From: Tricholoma matsutake
Lineage: Eukaryota; Basidiomycota; Agaricomycetes; Agaricales; Tricholomataceae
Direction of reading: 5' to 3'
Assembly (NCBI GenBank): GCA_026075535.2
Contig: AP026542.1
Span: 7,998,001 to 8,062,000, forward strand
Length of the DNA stretch: 64,000 nucleotides
Below are positions 4,327-39,503 of this stretch, in pieces. Below the pieces are notes generated by a model. That model had not been told where the DNA came from. It searched no databases and was given only the letters and a program-made list of their open reading frames with translations. Numbering within the stretch: position 1 is the first letter of the stretch; each line of letters starts with the position of its first letter. A program made the translations under genes and the position numbers.

Positions 4327-4404
4327 TTACAGCACTTTCAGAATGTTATGACATTAGTTTTTTTTTCAAAAGTGTGACATGATGACGTATTTCCAAATTG
4401 GGAC
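4327..4404 (+). repeat. Left terminal inverted repeat of the giant transposon
   Basis: It starts TTACAGCACTTTCAGAATG, followed by GACATTAG, nine T residues, then AAGTGTGACAT and a TTTCCAAAT block. It pairs with 39424-39503. The first plausible cargo start codon (4470) lies only about 65 bp inside it. Confidence 0.8.
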
Positions 4405-4469
4405 TTAGTTATATCAGTGAGTTTTTTTCAGCTTGTAAATGGTTACACAGTGTTTCTTGCTCGTTGTAT

Positions 4470-6285
4470 GGAGGCTAGATCTCCATCTGCTGGGTCTTCT
4501 CATACTGATACCTTGGATGACACTGACTGGGATGAAAACCCTGACTATGAAGAACCCATAGGCACACTCAACAACAATGTACAAGAGCTTAGAGCCAAGA
4601 TCAGGCGTAAGTCTTATCATGTCTAATCACAGCATATAACACTTTTTCTATGCAGAAGGAAAATTTTTGTATGTCACTCTGGCAACCCAGAAGGCTACAG
4701 CCCTGTGGGCAAAGGTGAATGAAAGGCAACGAGAGTCTAGGAAGAGGAAGAAAGCAGAAAAGGAGAAGGAAAATGTGGTGAAGCATAGTGAAATTAATGA
4801 ACTGGAGTCAGATGATGAGGCAGAATCGAGAGGGAAGAAGGCAAAGCAGGCACAGAAGGTCACTGCATACATCCACATCCAGACTCCTGCTGTACAAACG
4901 AAGGGGCGAGCCAAGACTGCAGAATCAAAACCAATTGTCAAAGGGCCATGTTTTTTCACTTCCAATGATGACTACAAAAAATTCAGGGAGACTATTGCCA
5001 AGTTGATACCCTGTAAACTGAAACTCTTGCTGATCACACAAATGCATTGGCAATATGAGAAACCTGCAAATGACAGCAAGAAGCCACTCTCATCAGCTGT
5101 GGGATATGAAGCCCTGAAAGACTTGCTTTTGGATTGTAAAAAGGACTTTGTTTTATTCATTATGATTCCTCCACCTACAAAGGATGATGAGGTGATTTAC
5201 CTGTTCATGTGCTGTAAATAATGTGCTTATAATATCTCTACTTAGGACTGAGATACTGGAGAAGGTGACTACATCATGAAGCCTTATGATCATTACAAAG
5301 AAATTGTGTTGCAGGTCCTGGGTGACACAGAGATGAGTGCAAAGGCACAAATCGTGAGTCACTCTGCTTCTCCTCATTGATACCCTGAAGTAGTACTAAT
5401 TTATATGACAGGCAGCTATGGCCAGTAACTGTGCCAAACATGTAGAGGAGTTATGGGGCCAATATAGTATCAGAAACTGTCCCCTGTTCCCGACCTCATG
5501 TATATACCAACATCTGATAGGCAACAAAATGTATTACTGGGACCTCACGCCAACTCGACTGCAGGTCTGGGGCAATGCACTGGTATGTAATCAACTATTG
5601 CTAGTCATTTCCTAACTGACAATATTCACAGGCAGTCAAAAAAAGTGGTGTTACGCTCACATCTCCTCCCAATTCTAACCACTTCAACATCAAACATGCT
5701 TGCAAGGCCCCTCCTGCAGCCCTCATTGTTGCACCTGCTAGCATTACTGAGGGTGATGCTCTGCCCCCTCCTACTCTGCCTGTGGTACCCCAGTATCCTC
5801 CTTGGGCATATGGTTATCCTCCGCCGCCTCCACCCAGCTTTCCTCATGCACCCGTCTATCCTCATGCACCTGTCTATCCTCATGCACCCATCTATCCTCA
5901 TGCACAAGGTTACCATCCCTCTCATGGCTACTCATATCCATATTGACCTAATCCATACGCATGACTCTCAGACCAACAGCACCCTGCCTATCCCACCAGA
6001 AATCCTTCTCAGCCATTCTCACCTGTTCCGTTGCCAAGTGTTGCTATTCATCTCCAAGTCCCCCTCAAAGTATTTTGTGCTCGATATGATATCCCTGACT
6101 CAGATAAGGAAAAGCTGGCAAAGCTTGAGTACCAGCCAGGTGATAACATCGTCATGAGGTTGGAGGAGAAATACTGGGAGCATGAGGGTTTCACTGTATT
6201 GAGATGGAAGGGGTTTCTTGCTCCCCACAAGCAGTTCATGAAGGAGGTGCAAAATGGAACTTGGGCTACCACCAACGATACATGA
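4470..6285 (+). pseudogene. Uncharacterised Agaricomycete-type multi-exon gene, transposon cargo, with in-frame stops
   Basis: Exons join cleanly over short introns (for example about 4610-4654, 5194-5246, 5355-5412 and 5584-5632). The product has an acidic N-terminus and a Lys/Arg/Glu-rich, probably helical segment (about 4700-4860). A conserved-looking core follows with LITQMHWQYEKPANDSKKP and IMIPPPTKDDE. After it come a Pro/Tyr/His-rich linker and a C-terminal block with KLAKLEYQPGDNIV and GFTVLRWKGFLAPHKQF. I recognise the general shape from mushroom lineage-specific hypothetical proteins but know no function. In-frame TGA codons occur at 5944-5946 and 5962-5964, and another follows the third intron where Trp would fit. 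It abuts the left TIR, so it is probably cargo. Confidence 0.65.
5842..5905 (+). repeat. 18-bp coding tandem repeat, about 3.5 copies
   Basis: The unit CCTCATGCACCCGTCTAT repeats at 5842, 5860 and 5878 with a partial fourth copy. It encodes YPHAPV/YPHAPI hexapeptides in the linker of the orphan gene. Confidence 0.9.
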
Positions 6286-6639
6286 GATCAGGGATTGTAT
6301 GTTTTTTATATGTGCTCGAGATACTCTGCTTTGGACTTGTCGCATCTTTTCACTATACATTGCTCATGCATCGCTTCAGGGTTTTTTCTTAGTTCTGTCA
6401 TTGCTGTTAGATATCACAAATGGACTTTATAACCACACAGCATGTACAGACTCATAGATGCAATTACAATGTTTGTTCACTGAATGTAGCCCAAATTGGT
6501 GAACCATGCTTACACATCTCTGCCATGATACAACCGCATGCTTCCAATAATGTTTGGATTGGATCTGGAGTGTGGCATAACACGTCACCGTGTCGACAAA
6601 GATATGCCTTTACTGTATGAAGGTGAGATGATTACAGCT
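6286..6639. other. Noncoding spacer
   Basis: Only short, unsupported frames are present. It separates the orphan gene from the mariner remnant, and the 3' end of the mariner element probably lies here. Confidence 0.5.
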
Positions 6640-7450
6640 AGCTGCGAGACATAGAAGGCTCACATGTGCTGAATGACTCTTCAATCGGATTTAGATCAGG
6701 TGAATATGCAGGCAAATAAAGAATCAGACAGCCTATGAATGTGAATGGGACTGTTGAGTTTGTGCATCAAATAAGGTGGATAAACCTGACCTGCACTCTT
6801 TACTAGTTGAACAAGAGCATCGTTATGATGTATTCAGCAGTTGTCAAGCACCAGGATAGATTGTTCTGCAGGAAAGGGTTGCATTTCTGGAAGCTAGCAA
6901 TGATTGAGCCAGATGTATGAACTCATACGCAATATGAAAACATACTACTTCCTCTTGAATGAAGTCATAGAATTCCAGTGAATCAAACAAGCCAGGAACA
7001 ACTTGAGTGGCAAGGTAGCCATCGCAAGTCATAGCAGTCAGAAGGGAGTAACGATCACCATGCACAAAGACATCCTTGAGTTCAGCTCGTTGTCCAGCAG
7101 GAGCTAGGCCATATTGGTGTGCATAGCTGTGTTCATTCTTGCTGGTTTTGTCAAGACAGATAAATTCTGAGCCATCACCAGACAAGCGAGGGTCCTGCTG
7201 CACCTCCCTCCACTGTGCTAGCAACTCTTCATCTCATTCAAAGGCAATTTTGTGGAGCATCTTTTGAGTTTCTTGAGATTCTCATGGAGCGCCGAGACAG
7301 AAATGATGATGTTGTGATTTATTGCAAGCCAGAGAACCAGCTCGTCAAGATAGAGATCAGATTCTTGCTCATAGATAGTGTGGACTGCCATGAGAACAGC
7401 TCTAGTAAGACGCCGAGTAGGTCCATAAGGTGCAAAATGAGGTCAGTTCA
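6640..7450 (-). pseudogene. Tc1/mariner-type (DDE_3-like) transposase remnant
   Basis: The minus strand reads DELVLWLAINHNIIISVSAL (a helix-turn-helix-like piece, about 7370-7290). It continues with an LDKTSKNEHSYAHQYGLAPAGQRA block, an HGDRYSLLTAMTCDGYLA block and GLFDSLEFYDFIQEEV. These are the first-Asp and central blocks of the Tc1/mariner DDE domain. After a frameshift near 6870 the second Asp box appears as SILVLDNC. Further on AYSPDLNPIEESF, the third acidic box, is visible. The normal E or D before RT in the first box is altered, and the gene is split by at least two frameshifts and a stop. No TIRs were delimited. Confidence 0.75.
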
Positions 7451-8525
7451 CTGATCTGTTGATGATACTCAACCCGGGAAAACCACCAAAACTGCTGATG
7501 ATATTTGCACAAGTCAGAGGAAGGGTGCGAGATGTTCTGAATGTTTGTGATCCAACCAATGGGAAGACAACTAGTTGGTACTAGTTGTAAAGGTAGTTCT
7601 ATAAGGGAGGAAGGTGTTTAGCACGGTCCAATGGAGTATCAATCGATATCGAGGACAATCAACAAGATTGATGGCAAACGATGTTTATCATTGAGGGTCG
7701 ATGTGTGAATTCTAAGGACTTTTGGTGGATCGATAGTATACGAAGATTATAGCTGATGGCTATGAAGTACCAGAGTGGTTACTAGTGCTAATGATAAGAG
7801 GATTGAAAGTTGATCGAGGATGACAATGGTCGCAGAGGTTTCTTGTCAATCGAGAAAACCCATAGAAGTTTCAATTGTTTTAGAGGATAGATCAGATTCT
7901 TAGAACTTTACACGAGACAATATGTGAAGACGATTTCTTGTATTTCCAAGTAGATACTACAGTGTTTTATATGTTTTAAAAGAAACTTCCTAAAATGGTA
8001 TAAGAAACATGTGTAGAACATGAGGCAAAAGATATGAGTTAAGACACGAGGCCAAAAGGAGACTGGAATCCGAACAAGAAAGAGATATATCATATGATGA
8101 AGGAGTAATAAAGGGAAAGAACTAAAAAGAGACTGTCCTTTGTGTATAAACTGCGCTAAGTCTTGCAATAATCCATCCAGCAGGTTCTGTATGCGATAGG
8201 GACTTGGAACAAGGCTGACCTACTATCAGCAGGTTTGAGCACAAGTTGGAATACTTCCTGGTGCATGGTATTCCACCATTTAGATAACGAATGCAGTGCC
8301 TGATGTTGCTCGTAGTTTCTCGATGTTGATTGATAACACTGTTCGATCACGGTCATGGTTGTTTGAAGTTGATCGGCATCAGGAAAACTGCTTTTGGACT
8401 CAGAATATTCTCAGGGTACCTGGCTTTTCCCAGGGTTTCTCAAAGTATCTCAAGGGAACACAGGGTACCTCAAAGTATCTCAAGGGAACACAAGGTACCT
8501 CAGAAACACATACTGTATTAATTAT
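7451..8525. other. Gene-free spacer with a 30-bp tandem duplication
   Basis: No coding region is supported. At 8439-8498 a 30-bp unit (starting CTCAAAGTATCTCAAGGGAA) occurs twice in tandem. Similar TCTCAAGG/CCTTGAGA motifs recur at about 37660-37680. The rest is AT-rich sequence without recognised structure. Confidence 0.5.
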
Positions 8526-11500
8526 CTACCAAATTGTCTGATAAGCATAAGAATGAGTCCAATTATTAACTAAAAATGATTTGGAACTATCCAACACGTT
8601 AGTACTAGTCCATGATGATATATCTTCTGTGAATCTAGGAATCAGCATGCAGCTTTGTCTAATTTCAGTCAAAGGAATAATAGAACATTGAGGTGACGGT
8701 GTTTTCTTAATAGTGTACATCCCATAGTGTTCATGAGCAGTTGGCAGCAATGGTGAATACCATTCCACATATGCCAAAGGATCCTGAGGCCAGTTTTGAG
8801 GGGACAGGATACTGTTTAGAAGAGCAGGGAGCTTGAATATAACCCTTACATGTCCAATGCATGTGCCTACAAATACATATGTCTTGAGTGGCAATTCAGC
8901 AGGGAAGAAGTATTTGTATGACTATACCTTGAAGACCAGTGGCCTCTGCATGGTCCTTTCTCAATGCTACAACTGTATCAAATCTACCTGTAGGCATCTT
9001 CTTGGTTATTGGCAATGCCTTGACAGTATCACACTCATCATCTTCATTATGGAGACTGGCAGGATGGAATCTGAACTGGGTGAACAAGTCAAGACATTGG
9101 AAAAGTATTGGATTTGAAACTGCAACCAGATTTGTTGATCTACGTCCACATTCCAGAAAAAGGTTGAGATATTTCTTGAGATCTTTGGCAAAAGAAGGTG
9201 CACAATGTAATTTTTCAACATGGGCAAGATGGCATCTAGGATAAGGGCAATGTTTTGCCATCAAGATAGGAAGCCTGGTCAAAGTGGGGAGGGGTGGCTG
9301 AGTAGGATTACTTTGCTGTTCTATCCACTCCAGATAGTTGTCAAAGGAGGATATCTTCTCTTGACATGAGAGCCAAGTGATCATCTGGGGGAATTCATCT
9401 CTTCGATTGGATGCGCGCCATCCTTTTTTGGCAAAACTGATATGTAGTCATTCAAACATTTCTGTGTTGTAGTTGTCTGTGGTCCCAAATAGTTGGATTG
9501 AGTCGATGTAATGCATCAGAGAGTGAAATTTAGGAATGTTGAGATCATCACGTAAACCAGGCTGAATGAAAAAGGCTTTGTTCTGGTTGAAAATGTTGAG
9601 GGCATCTGTCATGTACCCTAAAGTGAACTTGTCATGTGTCTTGTATTGAGCCAAGTACATGAAATCCAATAGTGCTTTGATGCAGAGGTACCCCTGTCTA
9701 GGGATTTTTCCAACCAAGCAACCTAGAAGAATGTGTGCCATGTGTTTTCTCTCTGAGCCAGATATTTGGGATAGAGCTGATATGCCATTTTGGAAATGGC
9801 ATACTCCATGAGCAGGTGGGAGAGTTTGAATTCTCAGGTCAAGTTCCTCTGGTGACATGACAAGCTGGCACCAGTGCACAATGTGCTTGAAAACTCCCTG
9901 ATACAACTGATGCAGGACGTCTGGCATGATAGCACAGTGAATGTCGGAATATGGAAAACTGACCCAGAAAGGCTGGTATACGCTGCCAGAGACCTCACAT
10001 TCCATGCAGAACTTGTGGAACTCTGACTTCTTGGTAGATGAACTCTTGGCCTCAGAAATAACATTCCACGTCCAGGTCTGGGTTCGTCAATCCCAGGTAA
10101 CATCGTCTTGATGATTTTTGGCTGAACACTGGCATTTGGGATAGGTACCATATTTAGAGCAGGAGACCAGACATGGTTCAGGGTAGTCAGCGACATAGGA
10201 TGTAAGAACCAGAAACACCAGACGGACTGTGCCATCACCCCCACATATCTCTATCCCTGTCTTCCCAGCTTCCATCAATGGCTGCAACATGTGGTGCATG
10301 GTCTCGTAAAAGAGACACTGATTCCTTCCAGTCTGCTCATGGCAGGTAAGACCCACTCAGGAAATTTTGTCGACAGAGAGGTAGGCGATGAGTACACAAG
10401 TGTGTTTTGTAGGTTTTCAACGCATTATTTCCTATGGTCAAATACACTGGATATGCTGATTTGCTGCTGGAGAATTGAGTCAACTGAGTCTTGTCACTAG
10501 CAATGATTACAGGGGCAAGCATCGCTCCACTTGGGAGTTTGCTCTGAGATAATTTGTGGTACATTGAATTTAGGGCTTAAACTTAGGGAGGGAGGAGACT
10601 TGCCTGAACTGCGGTCCACCACTTTGCAGTCCACATCTCTGAAAAGATATGGTTTTCTAGAGTAGGGTCAGAATAAACCTTGCTGGGTCAGTAAACCATG
10701 TGTTTAGACAGAGTAGGATCTGCCCATAGACTCCATATAGCTTCAATTGGATCGCGATATCGGATAGTGAATGTATAGCCAGGTCAATCATTGAAGGTCA
10801 AGGACTTTGTCGACCACAGCCCTGCTTGTTCAGGTATCAAGTCTATCTTCTGATGTAAAGCATGGGTATTGTGGAAGGAGAGACCAAGTTTTTCAGTGAC
10901 CTGAATAAATGAGAAGGTAAGCTACCAGTGGGCAACATTAAAGACAAGATGGTCTCAAATGTACCCCAGGAATTGCCAAGAACCTGTCAAATGACTTGTG
11001 CCCAATCCCATCCTTTACCATCCACTGAGCTACCCTCCAATCCATTTCTGAGGCAAAGGGTGCATAAAGGTTATCCTTGTCTGTGGCGGCGCCATCATCA
11101 TCACGCATCACCACATCCCCATCGCCATCTTGTTCCCTAAAGAGCTGGCGCCAGTGGTCACAAAGGCATTCATCCATTTGAATAACTTTGCCAGCTCCTT
11201 CATCATCATCTTCATCCAAACATCGACTCTGATTTGTTGCCCTCTGGTTTGCCTGGGAACTTGGGCCAGGCCCTGGTTGACCAATCGGGTCTTCTTCATC
11301 AGTGGTGTTGGGGGGCACATTGATAAAATAGTATGGATCACCTTGCTCTTGATTCCATTGCCACAAAGCATCATCAGGATCTTCTTCTTCCTCCTCCTCG
11401 TGTTGCACCTGTTGCTTGTCTGTTGCAACATCTCCCTCCTGAACCACCATGTCCCCTCCACCACTTCCATGAAGGTCTTCGTCATCCAGTTCCTCCATCA

Positions 11501-11687
11501 CTTCAGCCAACTTTCCCCTCTTCCACCAAGAACATGAGTGGGAGGTCTTGAAATACCTAGTACACACTGGACAATGATGATCAGCCTCCATATGTAAGAA
11601 GTATTGGTAGGACAAGATAGAGGTGTATAATGTGATGGTCAATCTGAGGGACGGAAACGGAACACCCACTTGGAGAAAGATAATCAT
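8526..11687 (-). pseudogene. Plavaka-type (CACTA/EnSpm-like) transposase, disabled
   Basis: Minus-strand blocks appear in order. First comes an N-terminal Cys/His motif (CPVCTRYFKTSHSC), a long acidic region and NLYAPFASEMDWRVAQWMV (11687-10938). Then APVIIASDKTQLTQF and AYPVYLTIGN (10564-10440), a Cys-rich block (10356-10087), and IMPDVLHQLYQGVFKHIVHW with FGTTDNYNTEMFE (10005-9448). A C-terminal part ends in a TNVLDSSKSF..NNWTHSYAYQTIW-type block (9384-8526). This is the block pattern of basidiomycete Plavaka transposases. Frames shift between blocks, some perhaps across introns. In-frame TGA at 9448-9450 stands where the family has Arg (MFERLH), and another is at 10087-10089. It is divergent from the TET/JBP gene, with about 800 bp between starts. 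Confidence 0.8.
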
Positions 11688-12489
11688 GTTGATATTCTGA
11701 TACTATTTATGCACAGAATTGTACTTTAAACCCAGTAGATCAGAAGTGATGGGTCATGGGATAAGGAATGTGTTGGTGAGAATGAACATGTCTGGGCGCT
11801 AAATGGGTATATGTGACAACCATGTTGACAAAAATCTGAAGGGGCCTTGGTGGTTGCTCGAGTCTTGTTTCTAAATGATGACGCTGAAAGGCTGGGTGTA
11901 AGATCATATGTCAGATTGGTAGTCAGAGGATTACAAATGAGAATCACATGCCTTGTTTCACATGGAGTAAATGTGTACAATGGTGATTGTTACTATTCTT
12001 TCAACGGGTATAATGTTTTGTTTTACGTTTAGGCTTTGGACCCCTGGATACAATGGGCACTACGACATCAATTTGTGATTTTAAGTTAAGTGTAAGTTGA
12101 TGCATACCTTTTTCAGTCAAATCTCCAGGGAAGTTGGGGATACCAGTAATATGAGAGAGTTGGAGCAGGTAATCCAGATGCCCACTGGAGGTCAGAGCAG
12201 CAAGGCCTAACAGACCCAGCCAGCTTTCACTAGCTAGTGAGGATGATCATACCATTCCTGATTCTTTGGAGTGTAGGAAGATGACCCATAGCAAAAATAT
12301 ATAGGATAGCAATTAAACGTTAAACACCAGAGCAAAGCACAAAAACAGGGAAAGCACACCAGGAAAACTAGAGAGGAACACTTGACCAGACTTGAACTTT
12401 TTTTTTTTGACGCATTGGTAAGAGGGGTGGGAAACAATTTGACCGACCAAATTGTTTCCCATGAATCTTGGCATTTTTCAAAGAACTCC
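11688..12489. other. Intergenic region between transposase and TET/JBP gene, with a perfect palindrome
   Basis: No gene is supported. It would hold the divergent promoters of the transposase and dioxygenase genes. A T-run (about 12401-12410) and a perfect hairpin (12429-12460) lie just before the first exon of the dioxygenase gene. Confidence 0.5.
12429..12460. repeat. Perfect 13-bp inverted repeat
   Basis: GGGAAACAATTTG (12429-12441) and its exact complement (12448-12460) flank a 6-bp spacer, ACCGAC. It lies 30 bp before the likely start codon at 12490. It could be a cruciform, a protein-binding site or the scar of a small element. Confidence 0.9.
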
Positions 12490-12555
12490 ATGCCTTACCT
12501 GCTGTCGGACAAGGAGATCATGGTCTTGGTATGCTACTTCAAGTTCCAACAGGTG

Positions 12556-12674
12556 GACGCGCCTCTGTATCCTCTGGTCCAGCGCTTGGAAGCCCATCAA
12601 CCAGAAGTTTGTTGTTATGTGAACAACAAACTTCTCTCTGACCAGCTGTCTGATGGGCGACCAGATGGCGCGTC
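12556..12674. repeat. Imperfect 119-bp palindrome within exon 1
   Basis: The core arms AGAAGTTTGTTGTT (12603-12616) and AACAACAAACTTCT (12622-12635) are perfect complements around a 5-nt loop. Outer arms GACGCGCC...CCCATCA and TGATGGG...GGCGCGTC extend the stem. It lies in coding sequence. Confidence 0.85.
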
Positions 12675-13207
12675 AATGTTCGACGGATGGTCAGAACCTG
12701 ACCCAGGTATGTGATTCTTTTACTTACCTGTCTAAACGAGCTCATGTTCCCTTGGTCACCAGACATTGCCAGTGATGAATCCCATTGCTGCCCGGATAGC
12801 TGCTCAATCCTAACCCCCGAGGACCCAGGTGAGTGAGCATATGTTTTCTTCACTCATCCTTTGTTGAATTCCCTTCTCTCCTCTCAGCCAGATTGGCACT
12901 TGAAGACCGTGAGGAACAGGATGACTACTTCTCTAAAGTGAGTTGTCTTTATTGTTGAGCTGCCGGATACCACTAGTCTACATGTGTCATTAGGCCTTGG
13001 GGTCGCCATGTGCAGATAGTTCATTTGACACCTTTCTAGATACTCTCAACACCACCGGCTCGGATGACTCAAATCTCCACATTTCCACCTGGGCAGATGG
13101 TGTTGACAGGGTGGATAGAGGTTGCCATGTGTACACCGGATGGAGTGGGGGTGTAGAGACAGCAGCTGGGTGGACAAGTAAGGCTGACAGTGATGGTGCC
13201 TACTCGG

Positions 13208-13212
13208 GTGAT
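13208..13212 (+). repeat. Target site duplication of Gypsy-2, left copy (GTGAT)
   Basis: GTGAT immediately before the 5' LTR is repeated immediately after the 3' LTR at 32437-32441, as expected for a 5-bp staggered integrase cut. Confidence 0.95.
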
Positions 13213-15207
13213 TGTCAAGAACTGTTCCTCGCCTGATTGGAACCTGCATCTATCTGACCCTTTTCCGCACGTCAAACCTGACATTCATCTACTCCTCCCG
13301 TTTTCATTCCCACTGCCCACACTGCTGTGCACCAGGCTGCCTTGTACAGCACCCACAGCTGCTGTCTCTATTGCAAATTCGACTACAGATTCCTGTGTGG
13401 CTCCCGCTAGGTAATTTATCTATGCAGTCAAGACACTGCCGCAGTCTTCATTTCTGTTCTGCCTTTGTTCCGGACTACAGTATTTAAGCTTAGTTAGTTT
13501 CACCTTGTATTCCTCAGTTCATATATCGACATAGACTCGACTTTAGGGCATGGCACGGGTACGGGTAACACCATGTGTTTCCAGTCATGGGTATGCATGG
13601 GTATGGGTACGGGTATGGGATTGCCATACCCAGGCAACACCATACCCTTTTCCACGGTGTTATGGGTATGTATGGGTATGCTGGTACCCAGATTTTGGTC
13701 AGGTGAGTAATCATCTGACCTTGTTGAATACTCACGACACATCTAATTTTAAACTATAGGATGGTCCAACCACCATAGCATGGCCCAAATGATGCAAATC
13801 ATTGTTTGGGCCTATAGTAAGTTTTCTTGTGTTTCATTTCTTGTTTTTTGTAAACTAACTGATTATGTTTCTTCTTTTTCAGGTTATAAACTACTGATAA
13901 TGATGGACGACAACAGCTAATGACACACACCCAACAGTGCCATGTCACCCAGGCCCAAACGATGTGATTGTGTTGTTTGGGCCCATGGTAATTTTTTTTA
14001 GTTCATTTCTTTTTTTTGTAAACTAACTATTTTGTTTCTTTCATTTCCTAGGTTGGAATTCCCTCGGAACAAGGAGCTCACATGGAATGACCCCATGCCA
14101 ACACCACCATGTCACGACGGCACACCACCTGCCCCAGCCTCACGAGCAACTGCTCGTGGGGTGGATAGCGGATGGAATGACGATGATGACTAGGAGGAGG
14201 ACCCGAGGACCCAACTGCTCATGGGGTGGAAACGGGGATCAACAACTACGGGCACACCACCTGCCCCAGCCTCACAAGCAACTGCTCGTGGGGTGGATAG
14301 CGGGGGGAATGACAACGATGACCAGGAGGAGGACCCAAGGACCCAACTGCCACCACAAGCAACTGCTTGTGGGGTGGAAACGGGGATTGACGACTACAGG
14401 CAGCACCCCCCCCTCTCTCACTGCAAATGCAAGCGGGGGGGTTACTCATTCTGTTCTCGGTGACTACAGGCACCACCCTCCTCCCTTGCTCCAAACGCGA
14501 GAGGGGGGGGGTTTTGTTTTGTTTTCATTGACTACAGGCACCACCACCCCCTCCCTCACTCCAAATGTGGAGGGGGGGGTTTCTATATTAATTTAATGTA
14601 ATTTATTTATTAGAATAGGTCCACCACCCCCTCCCTCACTCCAAATGCGAGCGAGGGGGTTTCTATTAACTTAGTTTAGTGTAATAAGTTATTAAAATAA
14701 GTATTCTTCTCGAAACCTGCGAATAACCATGGGTAACCTGTGGAAACCTGCGGTAATACTGTACCCATACCCATGCGGGTATGGTGTTCACAGGTACGGG
14801 TAAGGGTATGAGGAAATATACCCAAGGGTTACCCATGCCATGCCCTACTCGACTTTAACCTGCCAATCCAAATCTCCTTCTACTCCTACCTCAGTTTCTC
14901 TAAGAGTCTGAACTCCATTCAACTCGACCTCTAGTCTTCCTCTGAAGTTCTAATCTCATCTGAACTTAACCCAAGTTCCTCTGTACTCCTTCCCGCATTT
15001 ACCCGCACTTCCCCGCTTCGACCTCCAAACCTTCGTCTTGAAATTAGGACACCAGACGAGGTGAAGGGCGCAGCTTCTTACAAGCTGAAGCCAAGTCCTT
15101 TCTGTTTTCCCTTCCGCAGAATCCGCCACGACCCGACAACCTTCTGCTATCATCACCCACAGGGTCCGATCGGATTCTGACATACCTTCTAGGATCAGTT
15201 CTTAACA
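13213..15207 (+). repeat. 5' LTR of Gypsy-2, interrupted by an hAT-like MITE
   Basis: It aligns end to end with 31738-32436 once the MITE (13544-14847) and its duplication are removed. A TATA-like TATTTAAG lies at 13481-13488. The predicted transcript start, about 28-35 bp downstream, falls at AGTTCATATAT (13516-13526), which matches the priming site. The net LTR length is about 0.68 kb. Confidence 0.95.
13544..14847. mobile_element. hAT-like MITE with 8-bp target duplication
   Basis: The 1304-bp insertion has ends TAGGGCATGGCACGGGTA and, on the other strand, TAGGGCATGGCATGGGTA, flanked by CTCGACTT at 13536-13543 and 14848-14855. The undisturbed 3' LTR shows the empty site CTCAACTT once. An 8-bp duplication and a TAGGG terminus fit the hAT superfamily. 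The subterminal regions are rich in GGGTATG/GGGTACG repeats. The body has Gly/Pro-type GC-rich repeats around 14080-14660 with G and C runs. It encodes no transposase, so it is non-autonomous. Confidence 0.9.
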
Positions 15208-29477: not shown

Positions 29478-29486
29478 AAGGGGGAG
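29478..29486 (+). promoter_or_regulatory. Copia polypurine tract
   Basis: AAGGGGGAG sits immediately upstream of the 3' LTR and would prime plus-strand DNA synthesis. Confidence 0.85.
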
Positions 29487-29695: not shown

Positions 29696-29700
29696 GTTAT

Positions 29701-30510
29701 CACCCGCAAGGTGATGGTCAGACGGAATGACTTAATCAGACCTTGGAGCAGTACCTCCAGATCTTCTGCAACTATCAGCAGGATGACTGGTCTCACCTCT
29801 TACCCTTGGGAAAATTTGCCTACAACAATGCTCCCTCCACCTCTACAGGTGTATCCCCTTTCTTCGCCAACAAAGGCTACCACCCAAACATTTCTGTCTT
29901 CCCCGAACACGACTTAGCCTCACAACGTGCCCGCAAGTTTGTCGTCGACTTAGACAACCTTCATCAGAAACTTCAGAAACAGCTTGCGGCCACTCAAGAG
30001 CATTATCAAGGCCCTGCGGACAAACATTGGGCACCCACACCCAACTTCAACATTGGTGACTCTGCCTACATCACTGCAGAAAATATCCGCACCACTCGTC
30101 CCTCCAAGAAACTTTCCAAAAAGAAACATGGCCCCTTCAAAATCATTGCCCGCCCGGGTACTCACTCAGTCACCCTGCGGCTTCCGGACCACATGTGGGC
30201 CATCCACCCTGTTTTCCATGTCTCCCAGCTAGAAAAACACTTCCTGAACACAATTCCAAATTGAGCACAACCTCCACCTCCTCCTATCACTATCGATGAT
30301 GAGCTTGAGTATGAGATCGCTGAAGTCCTCGACTCCAAGGTCAATAATCAACGTCGCTGCAAGATTCTCTACCTCATCCAATGGGAAGGTTACCAGGGAA
30401 CCAATGAGGAAACCTCCTGGCTACCTGTTACAGAACTTGACCACACTCAAGAACTCCTCACGGATTTTCACACCTGCTACCCGCTGAAACCTGGTCCATT
30501 ACCCGCTTAA
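29701..30510 (+). pseudogene. Gypsy-2 integrase C-terminal half and chromodomain
   Basis: It picks up exactly where integrase was cut: HPQGDGQTE, then TGA (29728-29730) at the Arg after the catalytic Glu, then LNQTLEQYL. Next come DDWSHLLPLGKFAYNNA, the GPY/F-like KKHGPFKIIARPG, and HPVFHVSQLEKH. After TGA 30262-30264 comes a Pro-rich linker and a chromodomain (about 30301-30480): YEIAEVLDSKV, ILYLIQWEGY, EETSWLP. Integrase chromodomains of chromoviruses bind modified histone tails and bias insertion. The frame ends with TAA at 30508-30510. Confidence 0.92.
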
Positions 30511-30811
30511 AGTTGATTCACGTTATTCATTCACTCAGCTAGAACTCGGAAACAAATTTATTTCAAAAAAGAATTGTTTTTCGGATCCAACCGGATCCCT
30601 ACACTACCACCTCAACTTCTCCCTTGCCGTCTTTGTCACCCTCTCCCCCAACCTTGCCCTCTTCTCCACCCTCGTCCTTCTCTCCACCCTCACCCTCTTC
30701 TCCACTCTCACTCTCCTCCTTGTCATCCACCTGCCTTTTCTCCAGATATCTCTGGAATGCCACCCAGTCATCTCCAGACTGGTGGATCCCGCATCTTTCC
30801 CGCTGGGACTC

Positions 30812-31647
30812 TCACACCGCCCACTCCACTTCTTTGTCTCCCTCATTGCTCTCATCCCCGGCGCTTTCATCCTCCACCCACTCTGGGTCCAAAGCATCCC
30901 GGATCTCCCCTATCGATTCCCGCACCGCAGTTGCCACCTCAGCAAACCCCTTCCTCATCATCTTCATCATCTGCTGCATCATCTCCACATTTTCCCCGCT
31001 AATCCCTGTTGCCCCCATCGTTCCCACCATTTTTGTTGCAGGGGCCTCCTGCCCCTCCCACACTACCTCTTTGCACTTGTGTTTGACACATGTGCAGTTA
31101 TCGCACATGCATCCCCTTGCACCCATCTTGAAACAAGCAATCTTCTGATATTTGCATCTGGGCCACTTGTCAGTAAAACAAGACTGGGAAGGAAAACAAT
31201 AATGCACCTTTTGCAGGGCAATGCCACCTGCACCCGCACTGGACCCTCCGACTCCTCTGACCCCACTCATGCCTTCGACTTGGCGACTTTCTTTTTCTTC
31301 GGGGACTTGCTCCCCTCGGCCTCATCCTCCAAACCCATGGCCACAGCCGCCCACTTCTTCTCTGCTCATCATGTGGCCGCTGCCTCCTTCTTGTGTGCCT
31401 CTGCCTGGTGCACCTCCTCCCCCTTTGCAGCCTCCTCTGCTGCCTTTTGCACATCCTGTGCCCTGCACTCCTCCTCCCTCACCACTTCCTCCAGCTCCTT
31501 CATCTCCCTTTCCATCTGCTCCTTCATCGCCCGCTCCCTCTGTTCATGTTGGGCCCTCATTGTGGCCAATTTGATCTGCGCAGGTACTGCTGGGGGGGAC
31601 ATATTTGATAGTTGATGGGGGTAGGAAAGAACATGAAAATCTTTCAA
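30812..31647 (-). pseudogene. Antisense coiled-coil / Cys-rich gene between pol and 3' LTR of Gypsy-2
   Basis: On the strand opposite to pol, a frame starting near 31600 encodes a strongly charged, probably coiled-coil N-terminus (RAQHEQRERAMKEQMEREMK and a following Glu/Ala-rich run). It continues past three TGA codons (31366, 31369, 31267; read as tca on +) into a KKKKVAK basic patch and LPCKRC. After a frame change a Cys-rich segment follows, with RCKYQKIACFKMGARGCMC and CTCVKHKC, then an acidic C-terminus. The CxxC...CxxQKxxC layout recalls fungal zinc-cluster proteins found in mushrooms. It may be a captured host gene or an extra ORF of this Gypsy lineage; I cannot tell which. Confidence 0.6.
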
Positions 31648-31737
31648 CCAACTACCACATTCGGAAATTCAACCAACTTCCTTATTCGGACTCAAACACT
31701 CACGTGCCTCATAGGCTCAGCACTAAGGGAGAAATAC

Positions 31738-32436
31738 TGTCAAGAACCATTCCTCGCCCAATTGGAACCCACATCCATCTGACCCTTTTCCACACGTCAA
31801 ACCCAACATTCATCTACTCCTCCCATTTTCATTCCCAGCTGCCTTGCACTGCCCACACTGCTGTGCACCAGGCCACCTTGTACAGCACACATGGCTGCCT
31901 TCCCAAGGCTGCCATCTCTATTGCAAATTTGACTACAGATTCCTGTGCGGCTCCCGCTAGGTAATTTATCTACACAGTCAAGACACTGCCGCAGTCTTCA
32001 TTTCTGTTCCGCCTTTGTTCTGGACTACAGTATTTAAGCTTAGTTAGTTTTGCCTTGTACTCCTCAGTTCATATATCGACATAGACTCAACTTTAACCTG
32101 CCAATCCAAATCTCCTTCTACTCCTACCTCAGTTTCTCTAAGAGTCTGAACTCCATTCAACTCGACCTCTAGTCTTCCTCTGAAGTTCTAATCTCATCTG
32201 AACTTAACCCAAGTCCCTCCGTACTCCTTCCCGCATTTACCGGCACTTCCCCACTTTGACCTCCAAACCTTCATCTTGAAATTAGGACACCAGACGAGGT
32301 GAAGGGCGCAGCTTCTTACAAGCTGAAGCCAAGTCCTTTCTGTTTTCCCTTCCACAGAATCTGCCACGACCTGACAACCTTCCGCTATCATCACCCACAG
32401 GGTCCGATCAAATTCTTCTAGGATCAGTTCTTAACA
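31738..32436 (+). repeat. 3' LTR of Gypsy-2
   Basis: It starts TGTCAAGAACC and ends GTTCTTAACA, preceded by a purine-rich AAGGGAGAAA. At many sites it has CA where the 5' LTR has TG, or the reverse. It preserves the empty target of the MITE (CTCAACTT). Confidence 0.95.
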
Positions 32437-32441
32437 GTGAT
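32437..32441 (+). repeat. Target site duplication of Gypsy-2, right copy (GTGAT)
   Basis: It matches 13208-13212 exactly. The host reading frame (GGT GAT ACA ATG) continues across it. Confidence 0.95.
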
Positions 32442-35400
32442 ACAATGGGCAATACAACAGGCAATACAACAGGTGAATATCAAGGTGGGGATGGTAACAC
32501 ATCCCTCCCACTCCACTCCCTGATGCACTTCTTCCTCTCGTGCCTCGTGTCCCTCAAGCACCTGTCCCTCCCACTCCTGTCCCTCATATACTTCTACCTC
32601 TACCTCTCGCCCCAACCCTCTGCCCTCACTTCCTTGACATCCCTCTGGTTCCTTTTCATCTCCCCCAATTGGACCTCCCCACTCCTCAGACGGATGCAGA
32701 AGCCTCGCAGCATGGTCGAGCCCTTGAAGACAATGGAAATAACTCACATGCTCACAAAAGGAGGTGACTTGGGAACATCGAACATAGAAGGGATGGGTTA
32801 CAGCAGGAAGGAGGGTGTGGAGGATTGGATGGGCAGGATGGACAGGGTGGAGGATTGGAGCAAAGTAGATGCAATCCACGTTGTCTAACCCATGGTCGAC
32901 AACTGCTGCGCAAGGGAAGGACTAGAGGTGATCCTAACCTTGCCTTGCCCAGGTGCCCCCATGGTACCATACCATGGATGTCCAATGCTATGCCAGCTCA
33001 CGCACCCAACATTTCACCCAACATTTCTTGTAATGTCAATGATTTTCTGAACAACATCACTGGACCCCAACTCCTGGTGACCTCACTTCTTCCCTGTCCC
33101 GCACCCACCGCATTCGGCAGCACCTTGTTGCCCATCGCGTCTGGCAGTGCCATGTCATTGTATGGTCCCTCGTTGGGAGATTATGTTGCAGGGAGGGGAT
33201 GGGAGGCTGCCACTCAGGCTTTTCATGATAATTCCCTTATATCCATTGCTGAACACTGTGGGGCCTCCAAGGCATTGGAAGCTGGTTTGAGTTTTATTGG
33301 AATGGTCAACAAAATCCAGTTCCATGCTAAGGTGGAAAAGTGAGTTTGTCTGACTATGTTTTGGTTTGGCTGAAATTGAAATGGTGAAACACTTCACAGT
33401 ATACATTGTAAACTGGGAACCAGTGCAAAAGATGCATGCGCCCAGCAACTGAAGGGCAAATATAAACGGAGTACACTGGAGGGCTGGCTGTCAGAGGGTT
33501 CAAAGTTTGCGCATCTGGCTGCAGCAGGTAAGTCTGCCAAGTGAATCAATGTCAAGCTCATTTAAGTTGAGACCCTGCACATTAGGAACCATCTATATCC
33601 TAATGGTTATCGCTGCTATGGAGGAGAAGAAATGGTTGGCCAGCCTTTGCATCTCTGATATCACTCAACTTTGTGGCATAATTTGTCATCCCAATGTAGC
33701 AATGCCAATCGGTCGAAGAATTGTAAACTCCCTCATTCCTACAATTACCCACCTGAGGAATACATACCCCATGTCTTTCTCGTCAATGTTCTCCTATGAT
33801 ATTCTTCAGGAGCTTGGTCTGCCATCTACAATCAATTGTGGGGATATGGAGGCCTCCAATTGTTTCTTTGAAACCTTTCTGTCCAAGTAAGTGGTTAATA
33901 TTATGATTGCCTTCAACTCTGGTGTGATGGTGGACAGCTGCCTAAAGTCAAAGTGTTGCCAGAAATCATGGCATGCCTGTCTGGTTCCCCCACCACTGGG
34001 TCTAATGCCCTTCCCATTGCATCAGAGCAACCGTGGCTTGCTAACATGTGGGGGATCCTCAGCACATACCTCTCCATCAAAAGAAAATGCAGACAGCCCC
34101 ACTATAGACCCACCCTCTCCATGTACAGATTTGGAGGATGATGATGAGTCAGAAAATGTGGCCACCCACCAGCAGATGTCTCCCTCCTCTCGTTCTCTGA
34201 ATCTTTGAGTAATCAACATGAATTATAACCCTCAGCTAAAAGTCAAGAAGTCCTTTCCTCTGGATGGTAAAGATTGTGCAGCAGTCCTGCAATGGACAAA
34301 CGCTCACCATCATCACACCAAAATGGCTCCCAAGGCCCAAGATATTGATGCTCTGGAGAAAATGGTGAGTTTGACATTTAATCTCAGTCTCATTGAGTAA
34401 ACCATTTATACACCATGTAGTTGAAAAAGCAATTGGAGCATGGGAAGAAGAAATCTGTAAAAGATTATATTCGAATGTCAGCCAGTGATCTAAATTACAT
34501 CATCAATCTATTACCTGGGTGAAACATGACATGCTAACCAACTCTTGGATGCATTATAGAGAAACATTATGTTTGAATGGTGTTAAATGCCAACCCCTAC
34601 TGTTTATATGTCCAGATATGCCTCCAGAGGTGGGTGGACCTATACTGGATGACCTGCAATGCGTTTTCCAGAATTCAATTGTGGATATTGACTCTGAAAA
34701 GGAAGAAGAAAAACAACGTGGAGCGCCAAATTATCAAGGAGTGTCTTCTAGTCTCCATTTCATTTGGTACAACAGATACTCTACCCACGTAAGTGATAAA
34801 ACCAAACAAAATATGCAGCCAGCTACTGAAAGTTTGCAAAGGGTCATGGGGCACCAACTGATATAGACATTGATCTTCTTCAAAGAGAAGGGAAGCGCAA
34901 AACAAATACAAGCCAGTTTGTTCCCAGGGCTTCCAAGGAGATGAAGGACAATATGAAAGAGTATGTACTGCTGTCAGCAGCGCTATGACATGTCTTTGAA
35001 TGGCAAAAGGTCAAGGTAAAGGTTTACGTCCTTTGAACTCAATGAATATTTCTGATACAAGAAATTATTTCCACAGTTGGAATCTACCCTTCCTGAAGCT
35101 TACAATACTCTGAAGACATATGCTGACAGTCTCCCAAATGAAGAACAATCTCCAGCTTACCCCTTTATGGGATATGTCGCCAATCTCAATGTTGTGACAC
35201 TTTGTCACCATGATAAGGGAGACAAGGATTGGTGTTTGGTTATTGTCGCCTCAGATTGTGAAGGTGGTGAGATTATGTTTCATGAACTGGGACTGGTGGT
35301 TGAGTTGAGGAGTGGAGACTGCATCATTTTCAAATCCGCTGAAATAAGTCATTTTAACCTTCACTACAAAGGTCTCAGGGCTTCTCTGGTTCTTCATTCT

Positions 35401-35472
35401 GATAGAAGCTTTGATTCTTGGGTAAAAGATGGCTGGGAGAATCATTACATGTTTAGTGGTAGCATTACTTAG
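32442..35472 (+). pseudogene. 3' part of the split gene: TET/JBP-type 2OG-Fe(II) dioxygenase
   Basis: Exons continue in frame from 13212. The first runs to 32472, an intron ends at 32558, and a Pro-rich exon follows. Exons around 33343-33900, 34422-34521 and 35077-35472 join over canonical introns. The last exon holds the oxygenase core. It has the iron ligands H-x-D (CHHD, His 35206-35208, Asp 35212-35214), DWCLVIVASDCEGGEI, RSGDCIIF, the distal His (ISHFN, 35350-35352) and the 2-oxoglutarate Arg (LRASLVLHSD, Arg 35377-35379). This is the pattern of the fungal TET/JBP family, which oxidises 5-methylcytosine. The gene is dead: the Gypsy insertion, TGA at 34574-34576 and 34986-34988, and an unresolved frame break near 32760. 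Family call 0.75; gene joining inferred. Confidence 0.75.
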
Positions 35473-35536
35473 CCAATGTTAATTGTCCTCCAGCTCACAT
35501 AACAGTGTGACATGTCATCTCTTTGCTTTTTCAACC

Positions 35537-37511
35537 ATGACACTCACCACTAGAAAAAGTGCTGCAGCTGCTGCCAGTCCACAAGAAGCTGCCCCCCCTC
35601 CCTCTAAAGGTAAAGCAAAGCCCAAGCCAACAGCTAATGTAAATTCTGGGGGAAAAAAGAAAGGTCAACCTGCCACCACAATGGATTCCAACAACTCCTC
35701 TGTTACCAAACCTCTAACACCTGCCGAAATACAACTCCTCAAGCAACTAACTTCCAGAAGTCGAGTGTCTGCTCAGGCTTAGAAATACCAAGAGGATGCA
35801 GGTATTCACCCACTATTTTGCATTTCATGCCCTCAAGCTGATATATTTATCATTTACCGTGTTTGACAGAGTTAAGGAAACATAATGCAGATCAACTGGC
35901 ATTGGAGGGAGGAAGTGACGATGAAGAAGAAGACCCTGCTTCTGTTCCTCCAGCAAAGTGTCAAAAGGCCAACCCACTACACCCAGTATTAGATGATGAC
36001 GAGGAGGATATTGCTGATGATATACAGGTTCCTGATGACAAGGAGGATAACACTGGAAATCAAGATAACAATGAGGACATACCAGGAGATGAGGGGCCAG
36101 TCGATGATGATGACCTGGATGCCGGGAATCCTGATCCTTTCAGCAGCAATGGTGCAAGTGTTTCCTATATTACATCCACTCCCCTCTTTGACCTCCCTAT
36201 ACAATCAGCTCAAGATCAATGTGCCTGAGTTCAAACCATTTTTGAAGTTGGGTAGCTCTCATTCTAGGTCCACCTCTCGTTCCATGACTCCCATGACTCC
36301 CATGACACCCACCACTCCCGCTATCTCAACAAAAGGAAACCACAAAATCCGGGAAAATCAATTCTCTCCTGATACTATTCGACTTACTCAGGCATCCAAG
36401 TCTCTTCTTCGACCGATGACAATGTGTGGCCTTGGGAGACGTTTTTCAGGGTGTCAAGGTAGATACCAGAGACAAATTCCTTTGGGATGTTATACATGCA
36501 GCTTCTATTGTGGGAGACAGCTCACCAGGTGGTGTATCATTGGCAGATGTTTTTGATGAAGTAAAAGGGAATAGTCTGAACAAGGAGCTTTTGCCTGGCT
36601 GCATAATTCTTTTTATTTATGTGGCTATTCCTTTCTAAATTTTGTATACTTTAGGTCTGGTTGGCCTGTGGCACATTATTGAACAGCGTCATCACAAAAG
36701 CTTGTAGTTTAGTCAAGGGCGCTTATGGACTACCTGGCAAGATGACAAGGGATGAATTGGTCGTCACTGTCAAATGGCTTACAGATCAAGCGGCATTTGC
36801 ATATGGAGGGGTGGATATCCAAGTAAGTTTGTCATTTATCAACAACTATTTATGGTAACAATAATTTTGTCAAGGCGAAGTCATACAATTCATCAGAACC
36901 GCTCAGCAATGACATCATATATGACTTGGTCTTAGCTCAGTGGTTTCCAACCGAAGCCAAAGCAGATTTAGGAGCCACAAGAGTAATGGCTTCAGAGCAA
37001 AGGATCTCTGAGTCAGTTTTGCTAATCTCACTGGTGGCGGTAACTTTATTTGTGTCATTCTTTTTACCACTGGATTGATTGGATTGATTGAATTCTTAGA
37101 TTGAACACGCTATCAAGGAGTTTCAAACAGGAGTCTATATGAAGATCTCCTTTACGGATGATATTCTCAAATCAGGGTAAGTGCCATGCAATTTTTTGGA
37201 CCTGGGGGTGTCTCGATGTTATTTATTGTATTCTTTAGATACTTCTGCCATGAAGCTACTTGGTCGATCTTGGTACAGAAGTGCCCCACTTGGACAAAGC
37301 AATATCTGTCCAATTTATATCATTGTGTCATGTGTGTAGCTGGTTTTTATTGATCACGCATATATTAACTTATCAATTAATTTTTATTAGCGGTCAAAGT
37401 AGTCTGTCATTTCTGGAAGAGGAGGAGGGTAATGGTGAGGATGGAGATAAGGATCTTGTAGAGGTTGATTTTGCAGCTTTGGAGGCCCAAACGAAGGCAG
37501 CGGTGTCATAG
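35537..37511 (+). pseudogene. Nuclear-type acidic protein with DUF6532-like C-terminal half, damaged
   Basis: ATG at 35537 (MTLTTRKSAAAAASPQEAAP) opens a Lys/Pro/Ala-rich N-terminus. TAG at about 35780 interrupts it. After an intron comes a long Asp/Glu-rich region (about 35900-36170), then a frameshift and a Ser/Thr stretch with four TPMTP-like repeats. Further exons read LACGTLLNSVITKACSLVKGAYGLPG, SEPLSNDIIYDLVLAQWF and HAIKEFQTGVYMKISFTDDI, followed by an acidic tail to TAG at 37509. The hydrophobic helices and the IxxAIxEFxTG...FT motif resemble DUF6532, a domain common in Agaricomycetes with no known function. It lies 65 bp after the dioxygenase stop, on the same strand. Confidence 0.55.
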
Positions 37512-38216
37512 TAATTTACCAGTGTTGTTTTTATACCATTCCATAAATGCTATCATCATTGTGGACCGTCAAAGCTGACAAGGCTGAGAGGATATGGAAA
37601 ATTGAGCAATCTGAAAGGCCCTCTATATGGCTTTTAATGATATTTGTGTGACCTTGAGATGCCTTGAGATACCCTGGCAATGGCATTCAACCTCAACACT
37701 TGTTCTTCTGAGTCCCTGGGAGAACTTTGGAGCTTTGGAGCCTTGAAAGCTCTGGGAGCATCCAGGAGCAACCCAAAGTCTCTGAAGGTGTCCTGGGACC
37801 CAAGTCATTTTTCCTGATGGGAGATACTCAGTGTTTGTTCAGAGGGATCTTAGGGGGTTTCGAGGTAGTCCTAAGGTTGTGCAATGTGGTTTCTCAGTAC
37901 GATCGATGTCGCTGGTGATGTTTCGACACAGTCGATATAATATCATGATTGATAGACTGGGTCACACTGCTTCTGGGACATCGTAGGAGTTAGCTGATGT
38001 GATTAGAATGTGGTTGTAATGGTGAATCGGCCTTTGAGCCAAGGAGACAACCTATCACTGTGTTCTTCAAATATGGCCCTCCAGTGGTAGATGCTCGAGT
38101 GCAAGATAAGCAATGTGTCTATAATGGCCTCCAGCTCTCATCCCCAATCCCAGAGGCTGAGAGCACATTCCTTCAGATCCTTGCTGATTCTATGGTTGAC
38201 CATTGTTGTACTGTTA
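37512..38216. other. Gene-free spacer with CCTTGAGA-type short repeats
   Basis: Around 37650-37870 there are repeated CCTTGAGAT, GAGCCTTG and TCTGGGAG motifs in both orientations. They resemble the tandem unit at 8439-8498. No gene is supported. Confidence 0.5.
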
Positions 38217-39345
38217 GTGATTGTCACGGGTATTAGCCACAGATAGTTGCAGGTGCAGGTACAGGTACAAAATTTGTGACCCTCCACAAACCCATACCTG
38301 CAGCATGGGTTGCTGGGTTTTGTTAGCACTCAGTTCTGCATTTTGCATTTGTTATCTATTTACAACATAGCATATCTAGTAGTATTTACTACTACTTACG
38401 AAGCGGGGGACATGCATAGGATTAGATGGAAGAAAGTGGGGGTTATACATTGTTGAGTGTGCACATATTTGTTCAGTGTAAATAGTCAAAAATGTGTCAA
38501 CAACAGAAAACATGTGACTCCATTGACTCAACAACACGTCAATCAACTACCACCACAGGCTCGACAACAGCGGTAACAACATGGGCGATGCAACAGCAGC
38601 AACAACAACGGAAACTGGGGCTCGAGGCCCAGGTATGTTTTTCTTTCTTCGCTAACTTGCTAACGGCGACACAAGGCCCAGATGACTACAAATGTCGTCT
38701 GGGTTCTAGGTAAGTTGTTTTTCATGTTCCTTTCTAGTTATCTTCAACTAACTAATCTTTTCTTTTGATTTTTAGGTTATACAGTAATGATGTCACAGCT
38801 CCTGAGGAGGTGCAACCTACGACCACCCACACCACAGCTGCGAGCCTCTGCTCGCTGGGTGGACAACGGAGCAACAAGGACAAACAATGCAGTACCCGCC
38901 CCCAGCCCCATGAGCCACTGCTCGCAGGGTGGGTCATGGGTGCTAACAGCCGACAACGAGGGATGATGGGATGGAGACGACAGGAGCAGGGAGACCCAAG
39001 AAGTGGGATACCCACCATGTATGCACCCTACACCTGTAATCAGCCATGTCAATGCTAACACCACCTATCCCCACCAAAACAGAATCAGCAGCATCTCGAC
39101 ACAACATGGCTGAAAAGGGGACCCACCACGACCACAGCTCCCCTCCATGGCTGTAAGCACCTGCTTGCAGGGTGGGTCGAGCTGATGGCCAGTGATGGAC
39201 AACAAGACCCGTCATACCCATGCTGTACCCTTGACCCTTACCCACCCTTACCCTTACCCTTCATTCACAGGTACGGGTATGCATGGGTAAGGGTATGGGT
39301 CAGATTCTTTTACCCCAGGGTTACCCGCGTCATTCACTATATACT
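38217..39345. mobile_element. Second, diverged member of the hAT-like MITE family
   Basis: Its body parallels 13544-14847 in order: CACGGGTATTAGCC-type subterminal sequence, GTAAGTT...AACTAACTAATC...TTTTTAGGTTATA, a CACACCACAGCTGCGAGC...CTGCTCG GC-rich block, and finally repeated CTTACCC/GGGTATGCATGGGTA. The ends and target duplication were not resolved, so the boundaries are approximate. It lies just inside the right TIR of the giant transposon. Confidence 0.6.
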
Positions 39346-39423
39346 GTTGCCTAGGAAGGAAGCAGGATGAGCAGAACGACATCTGGGACAGTCCAACAAG
39401 TAGGAATCTCAAAATAACCTTTC

Positions 39424-39503
39424 CAAATATAGAAATGTGTCATGATATCACACTTTCAAAAAAAAAAAAAAACTAATGTCATTACATTCCGAAAGCGCTG
39501 TAA
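39424..39503 (-). repeat. Right terminal inverted repeat of the giant transposon
   Basis: Read as reverse complement it starts TTACAGCGCTTTCGGAATG, followed by GACATTAG, fifteen T residues and GAAAGTGTGATATCATGAC. Compared with the left copy, two of the early differences (GCGC against GCAC, TCGG against TCAG) are CpG against CpA. The T-run differs in length. Confidence 0.8.

Follow-up and report, generated by a model that had tools for sequence, protein, structure and literature searches.

A TET-bearing Plavaka transposon within a probable stack of nested insertions in the genome of Tricholoma matsutake

We analysed a stretch of 64,000 nucleotides from Tricholoma matsutake (C5:7998001-8062000 of the assembly, referred to below as the window), in which a pair of terminal inverted repeats (TIRs) encloses four genes: a Plavaka transposase (PF18759), a TET/JBP-like oxygenase exon (PF12851, a weak match), a DUF6532 gene (PF20149) and an "orphan" gene. 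An earlier note had taken these genes, whose presence between the repeats our analysis confirms, for the contents of one giant transposon. The four-gene giant is a nesting accident, in which several mobile elements were inserted into one another. We are largely confident that the region is a stack of insertions, composed (from the outside in) of a Tc1/mariner-like element, a solo long terminal repeat (LTR), a TET-bearing Plavaka transposon, a Ty3 retrotransposon and a Copia retrotransposon. The coherent unit in this stack is the Plavaka element, a PlavakaB-like (CACTA-like) transposon that moves by cut and paste, and its family is a true TET-bearing transposon. All copy counts and statements about recurrence refer to one genome, that of T. 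matsutake itself (161,040,721 bases searched, in 13 contigs). The layers around the Plavaka element are as follows:

4327..4404, plus strand: left TIR of the outer element (TTACAG...; CAG end with TA)
4468..6288, plus strand: "orphan" gene of the outer element, approximate model, present in the C3 and C13 copies
6541..7459, minus strand: DDE_3 transposase gene of the outer element, main part, cut at 7459
7460..8376, plus strand: solo LTR, left part, starting with TGATGATA; target duplication CTGT at 7456-7459
13213..32436, plus strand: Ty3/Gypsy retrotransposon inserted in Plavaka; 5-bp duplication GTGAT at 13208-13212 and 32437-32441
25184..29696, plus strand: Copia retrotransposon nested in Ty3; LTRs 98% identical over 210 nt
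37820..38057, plus strand: solo LTR, right part, ending with CCTATCA; target duplication CTGT at 38058-38061
38058..38215, minus strand: remainder of the outer element's transposase region, separated from the main part by the insert
38216..39341, no strand assigned: distinct insertion of 1.1 kb into the outer element, which the C3 and C13 copies lack; ends resembling AGTGA..TCACT
39424..39503, minus strand: right TIR of the outer element (inverted-repeat alignment and genome copies)

The inverted repeats at 4327-4404 and 39424-39503 are real: their arms align (40 nt at 93% and 62 nt at 74%) and the pair recurs elsewhere in the host genome. Since the sequence is found at three other loci, the pair is more than a chance resemblance; it is complete at two of them (C3:1971118-1975886 and C13:7934679-7937984, the latter copy being 3.3 kb long) and represented by a single end on C6. 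What the repeats bound in the window is not one unit, as blastn reveals collinear pieces of a small element around foreign blocks. The collinear pieces are 4327-7459 (~93% and ~92% identity to the C3 and C13 copies), 38058-38215 (96% and 94%), and 39342-39503, which is matched whole by the C3 copy and piecewise by the C13 copy; the segments 7460-38057 and 38216-39341 are foreign to the outer element by the same comparison. Neither of the other two complete copies contains a Plavaka, TET or DUF6532 gene, and because these are missing there, the repeats demonstrably bound something other than the proposed four-gene set (0 of 2 copies). Nor are the genes "packed" between the repeats, since 19.2 kb of the interval (13213-32436) is the Ty3 retrotransposon with the nested Copia. 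The C3 copy has an extra insert of ~1.35 kb (L014:3307-4659), absent from the window and from the C13 copy. The insert at 38216-39341 in the window has a duplication of roughly 7 bp (TACTGTT) and resembles a small DNA transposon.

The outer element itself encodes a transposase that matches DDE_3 (PF13358, E-value 8.2e-14), and its ends read CAG..CTG wherever they are readable. A TA dinucleotide lies beside every readable end (both ends in the window and on C3, one on C6, the right one on C13); the left end of the C13 copy is truncated, and the TTA/TAA context leaves the exact TA border of the element ambiguous. Because of the DDE_3 transposase and the CAG..CTG ends beside TA, the outer element fits a Tc1/mariner-like transposon with a second gene, namely the orphan. 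The orphan gene has no convincing match in Pfam (best E-value 0.074), and its matches in the genome are limited to the window, C3 and C13, all these near copies being inside the same TIRs, and a distant relative on C4 (67% identity, C4:12633955-12634829). We have therefore rejected the orphan gene as a partner of TET: its near copies sit only inside the TIRs of the outer element.

The foreign block 7460-38057 is flanked by CTGT on both sides. Scoring of 40 from 1613 candidates in the genome gave at least 39 further near copies of its left part (7460-8376), which is why the block is read as a solo LTR, opened by the insertion of Plavaka. The Ty3 retrotransposon shows matches to the capsid, protease, RNase H and integrase-zinc domains, and further copies of its LTR were found. 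A reading frame of 1201 aa at 25702-29307, considered as a candidate cargo gene, was rejected, as its product is the Copia polyprotein. The observed/expected ratio of CpG agrees with this sequence of insertions: the outer element has 0.27, Plavaka 0.26-0.27, Ty3 with its inserts 0.50 and Copia 0.88. The ratio is 0.90 in the host-gene region at 45-64 kb of the window. The Ty3 interior contains at 17960-23640 arms of 112 nt at 96% identity, together with several nested inverted and direct repeats, which suggest another insert. The left Ty3 LTR holds an extra 1.3 kb (13545-14847) composed of tandem repeats of ~65-81 bp, which the right LTR lacks.

Within this stack the Plavaka element has its own boundaries and genes:

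8377..37819, no strand assigned: Plavaka (PlavakaB-like) TET-bearing transposon, CATCAGGAAAA...TTTTCCTGATG; 2-bp duplication GG
8445..8485, plus strand: two subterminal repeats GTATCTCAAGG, at 8445 and 8475
8529..11606, minus strand: Plavaka transposase gene, approximate model, PF18759 match
34218..35472, plus strand: TET/JBP-like oxygenase gene, hand model; HHDKGD motif; in-frame TGA at 34986-34988
35534..37510, plus strand: DUF6532 gene, approximate model; apparent in-frame TAG at 35780-35782
37652..37672, minus strand: two inverted subterminal repeats GTATCTCAAGG, at 37652 (one mismatch) and 37662

The earlier note had made the outer TIRs the ends of a Plavaka element of 35 kb; Plavaka has ends of its own, and without Ty3 it is 10.2 kb long (10,214 bp once Ty3 and one of the two GTGAT duplicates are subtracted). 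It begins with CATCA and ends with TGATG, its end repeats are 11 bp long and perfect, and the only four occurrences of GTATCTCAAGG (at most one mismatch) anywhere in the window are a pair at the left end and an inverted pair at the right. When the LTR flanks were joined, 41 of 42 genome rows spanned the Plavaka insertion point within 155-227 bp, and these rows without the insert therefore represent empty sites in other copies of the LTR. The ends were read at 11 insertions: the window, five copies that match beyond the ends (C3, C1:0.26M, C11 and the 4-kb derivatives C1:10.46M and C4:2.62M) and five short relatives. Identical 2-bp flanks were found in 10 of these 11 end pairs, and CATCA and TGATG are both exact in 10 of the 11 copies, including the one in the window. 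The copy on C3 (310836-321084, 10.2 kb) has all three genes and both ends. The transposase was identified by PF18759 on two exons (E-values 1.9e-17 and 3.9e-20, both above the cut-off). The copy in the window is dead, owing to the Ty3 insertion and to in-frame stops, including three TGA codons within the transposase match. In addition, 26 of 41 search rows match only the last ~340 bp of Plavaka; for 20 of these 26 there is a left-end match within 10 kb in the right orientation (at 1.9-4.7 kb in 18 of the 20), and such short end-paired relatives are what would be expected of non-autonomous derivatives. The exons at 32768-33890, inside Plavaka and upstream of TET, yielded no Pfam match; they may belong to an additional, fourth gene of Plavaka or encode the N-terminus of TET.

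The association of the three genes recurs in the genome. The gene order transposase (minus strand), TET (plus strand) and DUF6532 (plus strand) was found at eight loci from two diverged subfamilies. The window-type TET occurs at 22 distinct places (25 search rows, in which three second pieces were merged), of which 13 have DUF6532 downstream on the same strand, at a distance of 0.95-1.9 kb (limit of 6 kb), 11 are preceded within 30 kb by a Plavaka transposase of opposite orientation, and eight combine all three genes. One more place has a Plavaka match in the wrong orientation and with 24% identity, and was not counted. For this count we used 48 of 156 Plavaka matches, mostly the top-scoring ones, and two low-scoring ones chosen because they are adjacent to TET. 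The second subfamily comprises four of the eight loci (C10, C9:7.8M, C5:10.2M and C11:6.05M), with identities of 44-49% in TET, 60-62% in the transposase and 35-43% in DUF6532. Of 18 DUF6532 places, 13 adjoin TET, three lie in end-bearing copies without TET and two are unlinked. With an independent list of 120 Plavaka places and a limit of 30 kb, linkage was seen for 9 of the 22 window-type TET places versus 2 of the 61 places found by a general PF12851 search, the two lists having no overlap; when 22 places were positioned at random 2000 times, 0.96 were linked on average and never more than 5. Thus, the proposal that a Plavaka transposon carries the TET gene holds, while the unit bounded by the outer TIRs does not; likewise, of the two suggested cargo partners, DUF6532 does travel with TET (eight three-gene loci) and the orphan gene belongs to the outer element.

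The TET-like oxygenase of this family is defined by the motif HxDxxD. Its residues H150, D152 and D155 are invariant in all 12 rows of the family alignment, and the motif is present in all 15 genomic copies aligned (the window and 14 of the 21 others); H198 is at least 90% conserved, and an Arg residue follows nine positions on in 10 of the 11 rows with letters there. The in-frame TGA of the window copy (34986-34988) falls where P0001 reads through. The closest database protein to our model is from T. matsutake (91% identity over 55% of the query), and PF12851.14 is listed by the protein database for 5 of 11 relatives. Searches of the Protein Data Bank (PDB) with the family profile gave human TET2 as the best match (E-value 0.008), with CMD1 at 0.78; a phmmer search of PDB with the single model returned nothing relevant. 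The hhalign comparison of the family with a CcTet-like (AG-like) profile yielded a probability of 92%, and Foldseek placed CcTet (6.6e-07) and NgTET1 (8.2e-05) among the top matches to a low-confidence model with a predicted local distance difference test score (pLDDT) of 54.

According to PMC11040006, the position of Gly331 in CcTet corresponds to Asn1387 in human Tet2, Asp234 in NgTet1 and Asp350 in CMD1, and the residue there directly contacts N4 of 5-methylcytosine (5mC) and also blocks N6-methyladenine (6mA). Counting from the iron-binding Asp, the invariant D155 is predicted to occupy the position of NgTet1 Asp234 and CMD1 Asp350. Kojima 2025 (PMC12730594) describes two agaricomycete types: the PE-type, with the hallmark HxE, which is the sole type listed there for Plavaka, and the AG-type, with Gly/Ser at the position of CcTet 331 and Asp at that of 337, found in Kyakuja/Zisupton transposons and in CcTet of Coprinopsis cinerea. 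The window TET was rejected as PE-type, as it has HxD rather than HxE in 12/12 rows and 15/15 copies, and as AG-type, as all rows have Asp at the first of the two positions and none has Asp at the second. Because of the residue match in HxDxxD, the TET2 profile match, the alignment with the AG-like profile and the Foldseek matches, we read it as a putative 5mC-type TET, outside these two types as they are described by Kojima. The 61 places from the general PF12851 search are different: one that was tested matches CcTet (E-value 4.5e-21), and of the 30 that were read (L018-L047), 28 carry Ser at the first position and 24 carry Asp at the second, so these places are AG-like. Most of the 61 represent a high-copy CcTet-like family with frames of ~189 aa, rarely near Plavaka (2/61) and probably borne by Kyakuja.

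The TET gene is under purifying selection. The summed ratio of nonsynonymous to synonymous substitution rates (dN/dS) in its exon is 0.37 for 36 pairs of nine near copies, one of which (L105) is misaligned at the start and inflates dN; against a relative with 73% identity, dN is 0.12-0.14 and dS ~0.8. As dN is well below dS, the gene must have been constrained while the family spread. For the DUF6532 exon dN/dS is 0.42 over 36 pairs of nine copies, the last 11 residues being probably intron, and the signal of selection is weaker than that of TET. The DUF6532 domain was identified in the concatenated exons with an E-value of 1.4e-18 (67.9 bits versus a cut-off of 24), and a search of the protein database with the model gave no match. 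In the literature, DUF6532 is listed among domains of two Ganoderma species. The main text of Kojima 2025 (PMC12730594) does not mention it, and our searches of openly available main texts returned no report of a link between DUF6532, TET and Plavaka.

What could such a transposon gain from an oxygenase? T. matsutake is reported to display a CpG hypermutation pattern and to have two homologs of the masc2 methyltransferase (PMC6980582), hence there is probably a methylation mark to remove. The Plavaka transposase would bind the ends and move the element, while the TET-like enzyme could oxidise 5mC on the DNA of the element and so weaken silencing by CpG methylation for long enough to permit expression or transposition. 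The DUF6532 protein may assist, perhaps by directing TET to the element; conceivably it binds the DNA of the element, by analogy with Spm TnpA and VANC (PMC10398659). We consider it reasonable to infer, from the sequences, that TET may demethylate its own element, with a predicted enzymatic activity, a predicted substrate and a putative anti-silencing role. The complete picture, i.e. a three-gene anti-silencing transposon in which DUF6532 guides an HxDxxD-type TET, acquired separately from the AG and PE types, to the subterminal repeats, is put forward as a tentative proposal.

A number of observations weigh against our main reading of the region or against the assignments on which it is built. 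The PF12851 scores of TET are 17.4-29.1 bits versus the curated 34.9 (in the copy of the profile used here), and the structure models are poor (pLDDT 54 and 44). Nine of the 22 TET places have no DUF6532 nearby and 11 have no correctly placed Plavaka in the set used. One of the 11 Plavaka end pairs (C9:6.58M) is flanked by TT/TC, and C1:0.26M starts with CATCC, a slightly ambiguous left end. Finally, the observed/expected CpG ratio is 0.16-0.24 in seven TET-linked Plavaka loci versus 0.12-0.69 in 23 others (whole loci with flanks, fetched Plavaka loci L048-L077 only). As the TET-linked loci are strongly CpG-depleted, more so than most of the others, TET has not spared its carriers from methylation-driven decay in the long term; either any protection is transient, or the sampled copies are old. 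Age, stronger methylation and a TET-driven C-to-T change are all candidate causes of the depletion.

The CpG depletion of TET-linked copies also speaks for an alternative in which TET was captured from the host and is carried passively by Plavaka, to which it would be of no help, and this explanation draws further on the end-bounded derivatives: two of them (C1:10.46M and C4:2.62M) keep DUF6532 and show no TET, 20 short end-paired relatives gave no TET or DUF6532 search match (their interiors are unread), and four of the five short relatives sampled bear target duplications. Any transposon is expected, though, to yield non-autonomous derivatives, and TET and DUF6532 have been kept together and in the same order in two diverged subfamilies, with dN of TET well below dS. 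We regard passive cargo as rather unlikely. A similarly low probability is assigned to an oxygenase that acts on 6mA or thymine, or makes a product other than 5-hydroxymethylcytosine, as CMD1 does, and thereby marks the element instead of demethylating it. The Asp three residues after the iron-binding Asp is common to the family and CMD1 (Asp350; PMC11040006), CMD1 makes glyceryl-methylcytosine (PMC12730594), and CMD1 does appear in the TET profile search with its E-value of 0.78; the same Asp is, at the same time, that of NgTet1 (Asp234), for which contact with 5mC and exclusion of 6mA are reported (PMC11040006), and the top PDB profile match is TET2. A single 35-kb transposon with ends at 4327 and 39503 and all four genes as a unit is hardly credible: the pairing of the repeats is genuine and the interval does contain the four genes, but both other complete pairs contain the orphan and the DDE_3 gene and none of the other three, the insert starts and ends with its own target duplications, the near copies of the orphan are nowhere near the listed Plavaka, TET or DUF6532 places, and Plavaka has its own ends at many loci.

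Outside the stack, the window contains a tandem duplication of 243 bp with 92% identity (2070-2556) and, at 42429-63338, ordinary host genes encoding a TPR protein, DOCK, DBF4, a PP2C-like protein and S-adenosylmethionine decarboxylase.

Nested insertions can mimic one giant element made of unrelated genes, which calls for caution in annotating large TIR-bounded elements. The Plavaka family described here adds a different type of TET, with the 5mC-recognition residue of conventional TETs predicted from the alignment. If the anti-silencing proposal were true, DNA transposons of fungi would have acquired 5mC oxygenases on at least one occasion beyond those described, and a function would be suggested for DUF6532 for the first time; selfish DNA equipped with its own eraser of the mark by which the host silences it would directly exemplify an epigenetic arms race. 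It raises the testable question of whether DUF6532 binds the GTATCTCAAGG repeats and recruits the oxygenase.

Among known systems, the outer element shares with the Tc1/mariner superfamily the DDE_3 transposase and the inverted repeats ending CAG..CTG beside TA, and differs in carrying a second gene without assigned function in all three complete copies. The AG-type TETs, exemplified by CcTet, belong to the same superfamily as the Plavaka TET, but they have Gly/Ser at position 331, where the Plavaka TET has Asp, and Asp at position 337, where it has none. To our knowledge maize Spm TnpA and Arabidopsis VANC are not oxygenases, unlike the Plavaka TET; they are transposon-encoded proteins linked to loss of methylation of the element (PMC10398659). 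The closest comparison is with the TET-bearing PlavakaB transposons reported from Agaricus bisporus and Gymnopus confluens (Kojima 2025, PMC12730594), for which target site duplications of 2 or 3 bp are given. The T. matsutake family has in common with them a PF18759-type transposase, CATCA...TGATG ends, 2-bp target duplications and an internal TET/JBP gene. It differs, as far as the descriptions can be compared, in that the TET of Kojima's PlavakaB is PE-type with HxE and that of the Tricholoma Plavaka has HxDxxD; in addition, a third gene with DUF6532 recurs in the Tricholoma Plavaka, a domain never named in Kojima's main text. Thus, the linkage of TET to Plavaka was already known (Kojima 2025, PMC12730594), whereas, compared with that description, the HxDxxD-type TET and the recurrent DUF6532 gene are new here.

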